A DNA stretch of 64,000 nt from Balneolaceae bacterium (lineage in GTDB: Bacteria > Bacteroidota > Rhodothermia > Balneolales > Balneolaceae). Numbering within the stretch: position 1 is the stretch's first letter; each line of letters opens with the position of its first letter. Shown here in pieces: positions 4,605-11,665 of the stretch. The stretch lies in the NCBI GenBank assembly GCA_017795005.1, contig CP051242.1, positions 1,698,976-1,762,975 on the forward strand, written 5' to 3'. The position numbers and the translations under genes are program-made. Below the pieces are notes generated by a model. That model was not told where the DNA came from. It saw only the letters and a program-made list of their open reading frames with translations, and did not search any database.

Positions 4605-7571
4605 ATGAAAACGGGGTATTCCGTAGAAAAACTTATTGAAGATTTTAAAAATTCTGTTTTCCCGGTTTTTGAGAAGGCTATTGAGCATATCCCTGAAGCG
4701 CAACGTAAGGATATAAAAGAAAAATTAAGTCAAGCTACTATCGAGGCTGATGGACCATTCCCTGTAGATTCAGTTCATAAATTAGTTTCATTAAAAGAAA
4801 CCAAGCTGGAAAACCTTGATGAAGTTTGGATTGATGCAATTGAAGAGGCAACTGCTAATTTACCCGAGTTGGTTATTCTACTTCAGGATGAATCTCATTT
4901 TATTTCCAGAGAAGGAGATTCTTTTATTATTTCTGTTGGGAAGTTTTTTAAGCGTATTCGAAGATCATCCCGTAAAGGATTTCATGCTATTGAAAATGCC
5001 TTCCGAAGAATGTTTAAGCAACCCGAAACTGAGTTTAAAGTTGCAACCCGTGAAGTTCCTTTTAAAAATATAATTCAAATACTTCTTTTAAAGCTAAAAC
5101 CAGAGATTATACATTGGAAGCAAGCTCAGTACCGGTACATATCAAGAGTCTTTGAGGCAGTACAGTCATGGACATATCCGAATGCAACAGAAGCTGAGAA
5201 TGAACAGGAGGAAGGAGAAAATGCTGAATCCATTACTTTTCTGGAACTGGTCAACAAACTAATCGAGACGTACGATCAGGAGTTTGAAGAAGAGCAAAAA
5301 ACACTTTTTCAAAGTTACAGGTCAATTGAGGACGAATTGAAAAAAGTGTTAAGTTTAATTGGAACCATTGAGCTCTCGTCTTCAAAGTTTGACAACGAAA
5401 TTCTTGAGAATGAAAAATCGGGATTTAAAAAAGAGCTCATGACCAGTAATTCTTTATGGCTGGATCTTAAAGATGCTTTGACTTTACGCCTTGAATTGTT
5501 GGTTAGTCTGAAGGAACTGGAGTATGGGATTAAATCAGAAGAATCTGACTTTAAGGACGATGTAGAACAGTTTTATATCGATAATATAATTTCTGGACAT
5601 AAAGAACTTTCCCAAATTGTTAGGGAAGGAATGAGTGAACTAAATGAATCAGGGTCACCTGCTATTAAAGCGCTGATCAGCCAATGTGAAAATATCTATG
5701 AAAAAGTAGAGGAGGTAGTTAAAAGAACTGTTGTTGATCCATTAAACCTATCTATCGAACAGAAAAAGCTGAGTTCTTTTTTGAATGAGTATGTGGAAAC
5801 TGTAACGGAGTTTTCTTCTGCACAGCCTGAAAAAGGGGCGATTATTGAAAATCTGGATATTGAAGGGGATAAACCCGTATTTAATATTAAGCAGGTAGAA
5901 TGGCGTCGGTTTGTTTTGCGCATGATTAACAAGCACATAGCAACCGAATTGGATGCAGCCCTGATTGAACCTGAATCCTCTCTTTCGATATTTATTGAGC
6001 GTTATCAGGAAGTAGTACAGATTATTGAAACAAATCTGGATGTGATTGATGAAGTCTCTAAAAAAGAAGAGGAAGAGCCCGTTACAATTGCTCTAAAGAG
6101 TTTAGAACGAAGCGTAAATAAAATTGAGGAGGTTGAAGAACTTGTAAAGAAAGAAAGGGCTTCCCTAACACATAGAGTTTCTGACCAAAACAAGCTTCTG
6201 ATCGAAAACCTTGCTGCTTTGCTGATAAAACAGGATGTCAGCGAAATTAAATGGGCTGATACTCAATTAAAAGTGAAGGAATCAGCTGGGGATTTCAGTA
6301 CTAAGGTTACAGTATATTGGGCTAAATTTATAGATCGGGCTGATTTATCAAGAAGGTTCGTTACCAGAAAGTACCGCCAGTATGAAGATGTGGTGAGAGG
6401 ATTTCTGGGACTAAAAAAGCCGGTCTCCCAAATAGTGGAAAACACAAATCTGGCAACCTTTCTTCATGAGACGGATCAAAAATTCGAAAAATTACCGTTC
6501 ATCTACCGTCGATTATTCGATTTCAGAAGAGAAATAGAAGCAAGTTTTTTCATTCAAAATCCACTGTACTTCGATAGTTGCCGAAAAGCTCTTGAATTAT
6601 GGAAAGGAGGGTTCCCGGCAAGTATCAACCTCATCGGTGAAAAGGGAAGCGGGAAAAGTACGTTAACAAGATTTTTATTGGAAGATATCTTCAAAGAAGA
6701 GAAAAGCTATAATCTATCGTTTTCTAAAACATACTGGGATCAGCCATCCATCTTAAAAGAGGTTTCTAATGCATTGAATCTTAAAGAGATACATAGCCCT
6801 GAAGATCTAGTTTTAGAGGCAAAGAAAAAGAGAAAAGGGAGTGTTTTTATTCTTGAAAATCTTCAGAATTGTTATTTAAGAAATATGAATGGGTACGATG
6901 CAATCAAGAGTTTGCTCTACATCATTTCTGAGACAAAAAAAGAAATTCTATGGGTTGTTACTTGTTCGAGATATGCCTGGGATTTTTTGAATGTGGCATT
7001 TAACGTCGGAGATTATTTCTCCCATTCGATAACTACTGATATCCTGAATGCTGATCAGATGAAGCAACTTATTTTAAAGAGACAAAAAGCCAGTGGATAT
7101 CAGCTGGAATACATTCCTGATGCCTCGACCCAAAAGAGCAGGGCGTATAAAAAGCATTTAGATGACAAAGAAGCAGAACAGCAATTTCTAGAAAATAAAT
7201 ACTTCGATAAGCTTACAAATCTTGCTGAGGGGAATGCCACGGTAGGTATGATTCTATGGATAAGGTCTATTAATGAGATTAATGAAGCATATTTTACCAT
7301 CGAATCACTTGAGTTCATGAATACTACAAGTCTGGATGGATTGGATAGAATTTCTCAATTCGCATTATCAGCATTTATCCTTCATGATTCTCTTACTGCA
7401 AAAGAATTATCCAGTCTTTTGAATCAAACGGAATCTGAAGCAGAAATGACGGTATCAAGACTGGCATCCAGAGGATTGTTAGTAGCTACAAAAGAGAATT
7501 ATTATGCGTTGAACGATTTGGTGTACAGGCAAGTAGTTCGGTTGCTTAAAAACAGGAATATTTTACATTGA
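4605..7571 (+). CDS. large helical P-loop NTPase with C-terminal winged helix, function unknown
   Basis: I do not recognise this 988-aa protein as a known family. The first 600 or so residues are acidic and strongly helical with coiled-coil stretches. A basic patch lies near residues 113-140 (KRIRRSSRK). A Walker A loop GEKGSGKST is at residues 678-686, a Walker B-like strand VFILEN at 747-752, and a sensor-like VVTCSRYAW near 784-792. The last 70 residues look like a winged helix (LTAKELSSLLNQTESEAEMTVSRLASRG). The order helical sensor, AAA/STAND-like ATPase, winged helix recalls signal-transducing NTPases. No membrane segment or signal peptide is seen. Its stop codon overlaps the ATG of the MscS-type gene. 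Confidence 0.7.
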   Translation: MKTGYSVEKLIEDFKNSVFPVFEKAIEHIPEAQRKDIKEKLSQATIEADGPFPVDSVHKLVSLKETKLENLDEVWIDAIEEATANLPELVILLQDESHFISREGDSFIISVGKFFKRIRRSSRKGFHAIENAFRRMFKQPETEFKVATREVPFKNIIQILLLKLKPEIIHWKQAQYRYISRVFEAVQSWTYPNATEAENEQEEGENAESITFLELVNKLIETYDQEFEEEQKTLFQSYRSIEDELKKVLSLIGTIELSSSKFDNEILENEKSGFKKELMTSNSLWLDLKDALTLRLELLVSLKELEYGIKSEESDFKDDVEQFYIDNIISGHKELSQIVREGMSELNESGSPAIKALISQCENIYEKVEEVVKRTVVDPLNLSIEQKKLSSFLNEYVETVTEFSSAQPEKGAIIENLDIEGDKPVFNIKQVEWRRFVLRMINKHIATELDAALIEPESSLSIFIERYQEVVQIIETNLDVIDEVSKKEEEEPVTIALKSLERSVNKIEEVEELVKKERASLTHRVSDQNKLLIENLAALLIKQDVSEIKWADTQLKVKESAGDFSTKVTVYWAKFIDRADLSRRFVTRKYRQYEDVVRGFLGLKKPVSQIVENTNLATFLHETDQKFEKLPFIYRRLFDFRREIEASFFIQNPLYFDSCRKALELWKGGFPASINLIGEKGSGKSTLTRFLLEDIFKEEKSYNLSFSKTYWDQPSILKEVSNALNLKEIHSPEDLVLEAKKKRKGSVFILENLQNCYLRNMNGYDAIKSLLYIISETKKEILWVVTCSRYAWDFLNVAFNVGDYFSHSITTDILNADQMKQLILKRQKASGYQLEYIPDASTQKSRAYKKHLDDKEAEQQFLENKYFDKLTNLAEGNATVGMILWIRSINEINEAYFTIESLEFMNTTSLDGLDRISQFALSAFILHDSLTAKELSSLLNQTESEAEMTVSRLASRGLLVATKENYYALNDLVYRQVVRLLKNRNILH

Positions 7572-8512
7572 TGGCTATGAAAAAACATATATCCGTTTTC
7601 AGTTTGATAGCTATTGCTTTTCTATTCTTTTCAGAACCAGTTTTTGCCCAGGATTCACTCGCAACTGCCCAAGCTGATTCAACGACTATTCAAACCACTA
7701 TTGACTCGAATATTAGTGAGTTCAAGGATTTGTTTTCTTTCACTAAGATCTTCTTAAGTCTGGTTGTTCTTTTCGGGACTTATTTCTTCACTCGGGTATT
7801 GTCCTTTTTATTTGATGCACTTGCAGAAAAGAGTACTTCATATCGATTACTTCTGAAAAGGATGGTTCCTTTTTTGAATGTTGTTATTTGGTCAATGGCA
7901 TTATTTACAGTTATTGCCGGGATTATATCTCCTCCTGTTGAAACGGTACTTACGGTTGGAGCATCTATTGGTATAGCTGTGGGTTTTGCTGCACAAGACA
8001 TTCTTAAAAATATCTTTGGTGGGTTTATTATTATTCTGGACCGACCTTTTCAAGTTGGGGATAAAATTGAAGTAGACGGACATTACGGAGAGGTAACGGA
8101 AATTGGGCTGCGTTCAACCCGTATTGTTACTCCCGACGATTCTTTAGTTTCAATCCCAAATGCCGATATTGTGAGTAACTCTGTTTCCAATTCCAATTCC
8201 GGTGCATTAGACTGTCAGGTGGTTTCATCGATTTTCCTTCCAGCTTCTGCAGACGTAGATAAAGTGAAAGAAATTGCTAAAAGGGCTGCAATTTCATCCA
8301 GATATATTTATCTGAAAAAACCTATTGTAATAGTTTCTGAGAATAAAGTTTTTGAACAGAATTATGTAGTTCAGTTAAAAGTAAAAGCGTATGTATTGGA
8401 TATCCGATATGAGTTTTTATTGAAAAGCGAAATTACCGAGTTGATTCTGAAAGAGCTTAATCAACAAAATATGATCCCCGTTAAAATCAACGAATCAATT
8501 CCGGGTTCTTGA
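7571..8512 (+). CDS. MscS-family mechanosensitive ion channel with signal peptide
   Basis: A 313-aa small MscS-type channel. A cleavable-looking signal peptide (KKHISVFSLIAIAF...VFAQ) is followed by a linker, two membrane segments, and the pore helix with the Gly/Ala-rich GASIGIAVGFAAQDILKN. The beta domain VGDKIEVDGHYGEVTEIGLRST follows. MscS channels open under membrane tension and release solutes on hypo-osmotic shock. I chose the ATG at 7571, which shares a base with the upstream stop (TGATG); a TTG at 7568 and an ATG at 7577 are alternatives. The overlap argues that channel and upstream NTPase are made together. Confidence 0.88.
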   Translation: MAMKKHISVFSLIAIAFLFFSEPVFAQDSLATAQADSTTIQTTIDSNISEFKDLFSFTKIFLSLVVLFGTYFFTRVLSFLFDALAEKSTSYRLLLKRMVPFLNVVIWSMALFTVIAGIISPPVETVLTVGASIGIAVGFAAQDILKNIFGGFIIILDRPFQVGDKIEVDGHYGEVTEIGLRSTRIVTPDDSLVSIPNADIVSNSVSNSNSGALDCQVVSSIFLPASADVDKVKEIAKRAAISSRYIYLKKPIVIVSENKVFEQNYVVQLKVKAYVLDIRYEFLLKSEITELILKELNQQNMIPVKINESIPGS

Positions 8513-8622: not shown

Positions 8623-9003
8623 ATGAATGATGAAATATTTCTTGATGCCGCTGAAAATGGCGACCTCGAGACAGTAAAAGGACTCTTAAATGATGGAGTT
8701 GACGTAAACACAAAAGACGAACATGATCGCACAGCACTTCTGAAAGCATCAAAACACGGACACATTGATATAGTAAGTTTGCTGATCGAAACCGGGGCGG
8801 AGGTAGATCACAGGGATAACCGAGGAACAACGGCCTTATATTGGGCTTCGACGAATGGATATAATGAAATAGTTCAATTATTAATTGAAAATGAAAGCGA
8901 AGTTGATGTTCATGACGATCGCGGATGGTCTGCTTTGGATCAGGCGGTTGCTCAACAACATACTTCAGTAGCAAGCACATTAAGTGCAGCAGGGGCACAC
9001 TAG
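8623..9003 (+). CDS. ankyrin-repeat protein
   Basis: A 126-aa protein built of about three and a half ankyrin repeats. Each carries the DVNTKDEHDRTALLKASKHGH-type pattern (G-x-T/S-A-L, then A, then G-H/N and an LL-I-x-x-G turn). Ankyrin repeats bind partner proteins and have no catalysis; there is no signal peptide, so it is probably cytoplasmic. A strong Shine-Dalgarno AGGAGG sits at 8611-8616, 6 bases before the ATG, which fixes the start. It stands alone and ends at a hairpin terminator. Confidence 0.85.
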   Translation: MNDEIFLDAAENGDLETVKGLLNDGVDVNTKDEHDRTALLKASKHGHIDIVSLLIETGAEVDHRDNRGTTALYWASTNGYNEIVQLLIENESEVDVHDDRGWSALDQAVAQQHTSVASTLSAAGAH

Positions 9004-10402: not shown

Positions 10403-11665
10403 TTAATTGTTTATTTCCTTAATAGTCGTTTCGTATAGTGCCGGATCCCAAATTAGTCGTTGTTGATAATCTTCCTGCATGTGATTAGCGGATAAGTGAA
10501 GCCAGAATGCAACCGGAAGTTTATCAAAGAACACAGCTTGAGCGGAAGTCTGACCATCATATACACGTGTGCCAAAATCTATTCCACTCAACATTCCCAT
10601 ACGGTTATCATAAATGGCACCATATTCACTGAAACTTCGCTTTATCGCTTCGCCTTCGAATACCCATCCGAGTTTCTGCTTTACTTTTTGAGAAATTTCA
10701 GGAGAAAGTAGTTCGTCTTTGTAAAGTTTAGCCATCAATCCAGCCATTTCTCTGGCAGTTGTATGAGGGAAGTGTTCCAGTGCGTCTCTTTCCTGAATAA
10801 AGCTGAGGTTTAACCGGTTTTTTTCAAAACTGGATTTAGCTCTATTCACAAACTCGTCATCTTCATACATTTTCTCCGCTAATGCAATTGCATCGGATGC
10901 AGAGTAAGCTGCTGTTGTATCTGAAAATGTTGGGTTGATAGAAAGATAGAGTCCGCTGAAAGGTAGGGGGGCATCAGTAGCAGAAAGATTAAGGGTATCC
11001 ATCAAAGTGTTAATATTCTGTCCGCCAAGCTTAAACCATAGATAATCAGAAATTGCAAGATCATTAGTTTCTGCCATGGTAGCTACAAGCATATCCAGTG
11101 TAATCGTATTGTCATCTTCAATGCCAAGCATTTCAACAGACTTTTTATGGGATTCTTCACTGATATCAGGTAGGGAAAAACGTTCTATTTTATTGAAATC
11201 AGTAATAACCTCTTCTGAATTTATGATTCCTGATTCAACCTGTCTTTCATATTCCAGAATTAAAAAGAAGTTGGATAAAGTGCCCAGGGTTCGTGGAATA
11301 TCCGGCTGATAGAAAATTCCTGAGTCCGGATCATTAATATTAAATGATACTACGGAAAAATATTCAGGATAATCACCTAAGAATTCAGTTAATGCCTTCA
11401 ATGAATAAGTACTTTCTACATACTCATACCCATCCCGCATACCATCGTTGTTGGCATATAGTGTTTTAAAAGCAGAATAATTAGGGATTATGACTAGTGC
11501 GTACGTTGCTGAAGCAATAACTACAAATACAGCAAGAAATAAGAGTGCTCTATTCAAGAGGTTGTATTGGATTCGTTCAAAATTCAGGTCGTTCAAAGAT
11601 ACAAAGAACAAACAACCATTATCAGGATTTGGTTCAGGAGATTTTATGATAGTAGAGAATTTCAA
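10403..11665 (-). CDS. serine beta-lactamase-fold protein, probably catalytically inactive
   Basis: A long protein with an N-terminal membrane anchor (LLNRALLFLAVFVVIASATYALVII) and a domain arranged like class A beta-lactamase/serine hydrolases. Where the family has S-x-x-K in a helix (typically ASTIKIPIL) this protein has TLSNFFLIL, so Ser and Lys appear to be Thr and Asn. The S-D-N motif appears as ETND, and no K-T/S-G is seen near GMLSGIDFGT. I infer a non-catalytic homologue, perhaps peptidoglycan-binding. The frame has no early ATG: the longest start is a TTG at 11665, beside a hairpin, and TTG at 11596 is an alternative, so the N terminus is uncertain. Confidence 0.62.
   Translation of the reverse strand: MKFSTIIKSPEPNPDNGCLFFVSLNDLNFERIQYNLLNRALLFLAVFVVIASATYALVIIPNYSAFKTLYANNDGMRDGYEYVESTYSLKALTEFLGDYPEYFSVVSFNINDPDSGIFYQPDIPRTLGTLSNFFLILEYERQVESGIINSEEVITDFNKIERFSLPDISEESHKKSVEMLGIEDDNTITLDMLVATMAETNDLAISDYLWFKLGGQNINTLMDTLNLSATDAPLPFSGLYLSINPTFSDTTAAYSASDAIALAEKMYEDDEFVNRAKSSFEKNRLNLSFIQERDALEHFPHTTAREMAGLMAKLYKDELLSPEISQKVKQKLGWVFEGEAIKRSFSEYGAIYDNRMGMLSGIDFGTRVYDGQTSAQAVFFDKLPVAFWLHLSANHMQEDYQQRLIWDPALYETTIKEINN

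Follow-up and report, generated by a model that had tools for sequence, protein, structure and literature searches.

A 64,000-nucleotide stretch of the genome of a Balneolaceae bacterium (contig CP051242.1, positions 1,698,976 to 1,762,975; hereafter the window) carries a gene for a 988-aa P-loop NTPase followed directly by a gene for a mechanosensitive channel of the MscS family. Our reading, to which we give a probability of about 0.6, is that the two genes function as a unit in which an MscS-type channel is served by a cytoplasmic regulator of its own, an AAA+ NTPase that belongs to the ORC/Cdc6-like clade and carries a long helical arm. Obligate pairing of the genes, their joint presence and absence across genomes, the P-loop, and fusions of the same NTPase to transporters in other lineages were observed directly, and a predicted fold accompanies them. 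The NTPase is best read as a cytoplasmic regulator that is dedicated to osmotic or ionic transport and depends on nucleotide, an interpretation that draws on gene association and on the logic of the fusions.

Pairing of the NTPase and MscS genes

The preliminary description of this region, made from its sequence alone, held that the proposed coupling would fail if homologues of the NTPase mostly occurred without MscS, and we found the opposite. At every Balneolales locus with sequence past the NTPase gene (28/28), MscS lies directly downstream on the same strand with a gap of about -7 to +49 nt, and at L052-L059 it stays adjacent though every other neighbour differs. Scanning GTDB species genomes gave 73 NTPase loci, 69 of which have enough flanking sequence to judge; MscS adjoins the NTPase in 68 of these 69, downstream in 67 and upstream in L113. 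Bacteroidota and Proteobacteria are among the groups represented, with loci in Balneola, Gracilimonas, Aliifodinibius/Fodinibius, Aquimarina, Polaribacter, Alcanivorax, Gallionella, Gemmatimonadetes (Gemmatimonadota), KSB1, Calditrichaeota, Neomarinimicrobiota, Nitrospirota, Desulfatitalea, Bacteriovoracia and others. Alcanivorax-type forms are rare in Gammaproteobacteria (3 of 229 genomes). RefSeq annotation of Novosphingobium pentaromativorans independently lists an "AAA family ATPase" and then, 2 bases away, a "mechanosensitive ion channel family protein"; in a Caulobacter a similar ATPase/MscS pair is annotated, with the two genes overlapping.

Presence and absence of the genes were also compared by searching 67 family-level genomes separately with an NTPase profile and a partner-MscS profile. 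Both genes were found in 41 genomes, neither in 25, the NTPase alone in none and MscS alone in one, where the MscS gene begins at base 3 of its contig (Fisher p 1.6e-17, uncorrected for kinship). The pair is polymorphic in presence within genera g6, g17 and g19. Ten pair-less genomes were read upstream of their conserved amidase gene. At L228, L229, L231, L234 and L237 an rsmI or ankyrin gene adjoined the amidase directly, with both pair genes missing between, and others had unrelated genes at this place. In a phylum sample of 394 genomes, in which the MscS subfamily was called at a cut of 1e-50 (weakest match 7.9e-86), the NTPase accompanies the subfamily in all 63 genomes that have it, lying next to it in 61 and on another contig in 2. 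The nine NTPase-only genomes of this sample are transporter-fusion genomes described below and one doubtful relative (G127). The link between NTPase and MscS is not chance, and the pairing is obligate, with the genes present and absent jointly.

The NTPase and its partner channel

The two genes and their parts are given below in window coordinates.

4605-7571, + strand: AAA+ NTPase, predicted ORC/Cdc6-like, 988 aa, soluble (from the ORF list, fold model and transmembrane scan)
4605-6422, + strand: N-terminal helical region, residues 1-606, fast-evolving and missing from Balneola-type short forms
4923-5012, + strand: basic amphipathic helix, residues 107-136 (by hydrophobic moment)
6636-6662, + strand: Walker A motif or P-loop, GEKGSGKST, residues 678-686
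6840-6869, + strand: Walker B-like strand ending in ENLQN, residues 746-755, with a single acidic residue
7347-7553, + strand: C-terminal winged-helix domain, residues 915-983, predicted from the model (weak MarR/TrmB profile matches in relatives)
7524-7568, + strand: conserved C-terminal tail of the NTPase, YRQVVRLLKNRNILH
7569-7573, + strand: stop/start overlap TGATG joining the NTPase and MscS genes
7571-8512, + strand: MscS-family channel with signal peptide, 313 aa, of the NTPase-associated MscS subfamily
7997-8197, + strand: MscS beta domain (PF00924)

The gene-level features of the preliminary description held on re-reading, namely the 988-aa frame with its P-loop, the TGATG overlap, and an MscS protein with a clear signal peptide, MAMKKHISVFSLIAIAFLFFSEPVFAQ. 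The genes overlap by one base, the last of the NTPase TGA (7569-7571) being the first of the MscS ATG (7571). A mechanical ORF list starts MscS at TTG 7568; the ATG at 7571, which gives the 313-aa product, is the likelier start. The stem-loop at the junction is ordinary (z -0.42).

No transmembrane helix is predicted in the NTPase by hydropathy (maximum KD19 1.07). Its AlphaFold2 model (mean pLDDT 85; 87.5 for the N-terminal part modelled alone) bears out the earlier picture of a mostly helical N-terminal 600 residues and a C-terminal winged helix, with long helices that span most of residues 1-601 and are followed by an AAA+ domain and the winged helix. Foldseek and VIA-align group residues ~629-986 with ORC/Cdc6-type AAA+ proteins (best matches 1w5t_C, VIA Z 15.7, rmsd 6.0 over 326 aligned residues, and 7jgr_G, Foldseek E 4.7e-7), and on this model the C-terminal half has an ORC/Cdc6-type AAA+ fold with a C-terminal winged helix. 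The order of AAA+ core and winged helix is shared with ORC/Cdc6-type ATPases, which give the best fold matches, and also with STAND NTPases and TnsC. The window protein differs from the ORC/Cdc6 type in its low identity (11-16%), its helical arm and the missing Walker B Glu, and its family partners ion transporters rather than DNA replication. As the preliminary description had it, the protein fits no family that can be named: Pfam, NCBIfam and PADLOC gave no model at cut-off or with a convincing E-value and matched no named housekeeping family, and phmmer found no relative among PDB sequences. The best Pfam AAA score is 17.9 bits for AAA_16, against a cut-off of 32.6. Proteobacterial relatives pass AAA_22, which is consistent with the same ORC/Cdc6-like clade.

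The Walker A lysine is kept in the window NTPase and lost in clade B and several other relatives (L167-L169), including some of flavobacterial type. Walker B departs from the hhhhDE pattern, reading FILENLQN with a non-acidic residue at the catalytic Glu position; most proteobacterial relatives retain a DEAQN-type Walker B. Pairing with MscS outlasts catalysis, and this speaks for a nucleotide switch or scaffold rather than a motor. The AAA+ half is 82% identical to the nearest relative, the helical arm 63%. Residues 107-136 have the highest hydrophobic moment in the protein, with K113 and K116 invariant in A1, and may form a membrane or channel contact. Structure searches with the N-terminal half returned helical bundles only (Foldseek best E 0.026; VIA best Z 14.0, a designed bundle), and a match to a dynamin-like stalk (5oxf_C, Z 9.8) was weighed but rejected.

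The window MscS passes the PF00924 gathering score (81.0 bits against 20.2, E 6.8e-23) and resembles MscS small-conductance channels in its beta domain and a TM3-like segment, GIAVGFAAQDILKN. It stays below the NCBIfam equivalog cut-offs for MscS, MscK and MscM (best 68.4 bits against 500) and differs from those channels in belonging to a distinct subfamily with an obligate NTPase partner. This subfamily has about 30 near-invariant positions, many of them cytoplasmic, that its paralogues seldom share, judged on a small control of 18. Across Balneolales the partner is 45-78% identical to the window copy, a higher conservation than that of the NTPase. Six other MscS-domain genes lie in the host genome, so the partner is not its only such channel. 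MscS is split over two frames at L056 (10460-11499), and an in-frame TAA falls within the profile match of the MscS of genome G014 (L040), possibly through decay or assembly errors in these two genomes. On a plasmid of Caulobacter sp. NIBR2454 (L302, 4226-6069) the NTPase is followed by two tandem MscS genes, and extra MscS genes also lie nearby at L119, L121, L126 and L167.

Architectures and genomic setting

Six arrangements of the NTPase were found; L285 (825 aa), an uncertain relative, was excluded.

Architecture A: a soluble NTPase of ~1000 aa and then MscS, the window type
Architecture B: MscS first and then the NTPase, in one clade and at L113
Architecture C: ~1500 aa, a Na+/H+ exchanger (PF00999) followed by the entire helical and AAA+ protein; L170, L171, L172 and L286
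Architecture D: ~1700 aa, an SLC12-like transporter fused to the helical and AAA+ module, with a short MscS adjacent; L184, L185 and L282-L284
Architecture E: proteobacterial, an N-terminal hydrophobic segment or several transmembrane segments, then AAA+, with MscS downstream; predicted to be membrane-anchored
Architecture F: short Balneola-type forms (~430-466 aa) that lack the helical arm, MscS still adjacent

The MscS-first order in a whole clade and at L113 implies at least two order changes. The exchanger fusions are exemplified by L170 (PF00999 8.7e-19), in which NTPase profile positions 12-1004 map to residues 509-1509; L174, L176, L287 and L124 have a similar polytopic N-terminus that gives no Pfam match. 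MscS is adjacent at the architecture C loci except L124. At that locus (L124/L289, Gemmatimonadetes J002, G355:C169) the gene next to the antiporter-like fusion encodes DNA gyrase subunit A. In architecture D, PF00324 matches at 6e-44 to 1e-49 and PF03522 falls above or near cut-off; L184 has PF00324 without PF03522, and in L283 MscS is divergent from the fusion gene. One Gemmatimonadetes assembly (G355) holds architectures A (paired with MscS), C and D, the MscS-paired and SLC12-fused copies lying on other contigs than C169.

Among the short forms of Balneola, the ORFs at L082, L087, L088, L089 and L097 start near 5908-5959, and protein conservation runs from near their first residues. None has an ATG, GTG or TTG before residue 53-151, so that translation seems to need either a non-canonical start codon or frameshifting from an ATG upstream.

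In most Balneolaceae the pair occupies a single conserved chromosomal site among the core genes Ami, udk, PanK, SDR and rsmI. PADLOC gave a best E of 0.017 for the NTPase and no match for MscS, and for the neighbours of the pair it returned generic ankyrin-repeat matches and one weak kinase match only, with no defence island. Relatives of the NTPase were absent from 50,697 phage records and present on three plasmids (two of Novosphingobium, one of Caulobacter), with MscS adjacent in both annotated ones. At many Balneolaceae sites the pair is followed by a strongly conserved 126-aa ankyrin-repeat protein (window 8623-9003, + strand; identity up to 93%); its gene often remains where the pair is absent and is not a member of the module. 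Farther downstream, a beta-lactamase-fold protein (window 10403-11665, - strand; PF13354, 3.9e-7) shares a conserved block with a DUF819 gene and rsmI.

Probable regulation of ion transport and competing explanations

Since the NTPase is the obligate neighbour of one MscS subfamily and the cytoplasmic half of an exchanger or cotransporter elsewhere, it is most simply a regulator of ion transport in osmotic or ionic balance. We infer physical contact with the channel, nucleotide-dependent control, a sensed signal and an osmotic role. Most likely the NTPase would dock on the cytoplasmic cage of the channel or on the neighbouring membrane. A cytoplasmic signal (ionic strength, crowding, ATP/ADP or stretch) would tune its nucleotide-bound state, and that state would set how easily the channel opens, so that solute loss would be matched to the osmotic and energy state of the cell. 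Where other lineages have the protein as part of a Na+/H+ exchanger or a cation-chloride cotransporter, it would control that transporter likewise. A broader proposal, which we hold tentatively, is that this AAA+ class could be a general cytoplasmic controller of the ion transport behind bacterial cell volume, as a separate subunit for a dedicated MscS and fused to Na+/H+ exchangers and SLC12-type cotransporters. One family would then govern the kinds of transporter with which animal cells, too, regulate their volume.

There are partial precedents for such an arrangement. RCK/KTN proteins (KtrA/TrkA/KefC) are cytoplasmic nucleotide-binding regulators, separate or fused, that serve several kinds of ion transporter. 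By analogy, and not by membership, the NTPase may work as they do on K+ channels and antiporters; it is an AAA+ protein, whereas RCK domains have a Rossmann fold, and its partners are MscS, a Na+/H+ exchanger and SLC12 transporters. In bCNG channels MscS is fused to a cyclic-nucleotide-binding domain. They share with our pair an MscS-type pore joined to a cytoplasmic ligand-binding module, which here is encoded by a separate gene and is an AAA+ NTPase instead. We found no published description of the NTPase-MscS pair or of the transporter fusions in the open-access literature; nucleotide-linked regulation of ion transport is known, and an AAA+ regulator class in that role is, as far as we found, unreported there.

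Several observations weigh against a regulator of this kind. The Walker B Glu is missing here and the Walker A Lys is lost in some relatives, so hydrolysis is not essential family-wide. The helical region is wholly missing from the Balneola-type forms and hence is not the sole sensor, and its structural matches lie within the range expected of helical models, so no fold was assigned to it. Repeated joint absence shows the two genes to be dispensable. Finally, because the genomes are not phylogenetically independent, Fisher p-values overstate significance, a bias that within-genus polymorphism limits.

The main rival is a chaperone role, in which the AAA+ protein would aid the insertion, folding, oligomerisation or turnover of the channel and the fused transporters rather than gating. 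The AAA+ fold, the obligate one-to-one partner and nearest solved folds that include protein-remodelling AAA+ machines agree with it. However, the pairing is kept in several clades that lack or have lost catalytic Walker residues, which would be unusual for an unfolding or assembly motor, and permanent fusion to a transporter fits a standing regulator better than a transient chaperone. We therefore consider assembly or quality control unlikely.

The preliminary description offered a plain osmotic-stress pair as the simpler alternative. The transporters to which the NTPase is fused elsewhere are osmotic or ionic, and we prefer this osmotic-stress reading to the defence one, in a form richer than "plain". 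Two independent stress genes, co-inherited as an operon with no direct regulation, would both serve osmotic stress, and co-expression alone can conserve an operon, but the reversal of gene order, the phylum-wide exclusivity and the NTPase fusions to other ion transporters exceed what co-expression would give, and we regard independence as improbable.

The coupled NTPase-MscS pair of the proposed sensor-effector module stood; the abortive-defence logic attached to it was not supported. On that logic the NTPase would sense infection and open the channel, whereupon ions leak and the cell stops. The STAND-like layout, the fast-evolving N-terminal region, joint presence and absence, and weak sub-threshold nSTAND matches in some relatives speak for it. 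Comparison of the C-terminal part with STAND and AAA folds, as earlier suggested, gave an AAA+ ORC/Cdc6-like fold, while no STAND or nSTAND profile reached cut-off for the window NTPase (best relative L124, nSTAND1 26.7 against 27.1), and the protein terminates with the winged helix, with no C-terminal repeat sensor beyond it. nSTAND/STAND conflict systems (PMC7159879) likewise combine a P-loop NTPase with a winged helix and a large extra region, but the window context is not a defence island, and the main paper on them makes no mention of mechanosensitive or ion channels or antiporters. Moreover, a Na+/H+ exchanger or SLC12 cotransporter is an implausible lethal effector. Given the conserved core-gene site, the lack of a relevant PADLOC match for pair or neighbours and the absence of phage carriage (with few plasmids), defence is more improbable still.

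Least probable of all is that the winged helix binds DNA and the NTPase regulates transcription of its own operon: the winged helix, its weak MarR/TrmB matches and the nearest solved folds, ORC/Cdc6 and TnsC, which bind DNA, lean that way, but other lineages have this protein fused behind polytopic transporters or with a membrane anchor, and a transcription factor would not need a tie to one particular MscS subfamily.

Regulation of the channel by its NTPase would provide a functional hypothesis for a large unnamed protein family, in a two-gene system that is directly testable. Mechanosensitive channels are treated chiefly as tension-driven safety valves. If our reading is true, the conservation of a dedicated NTPase partner across many phyla would place many such channels under active control from the cytoplasm, and the exchanger and cotransporter fusions point to a shared control layer in bacterial ion and volume homeostasis.

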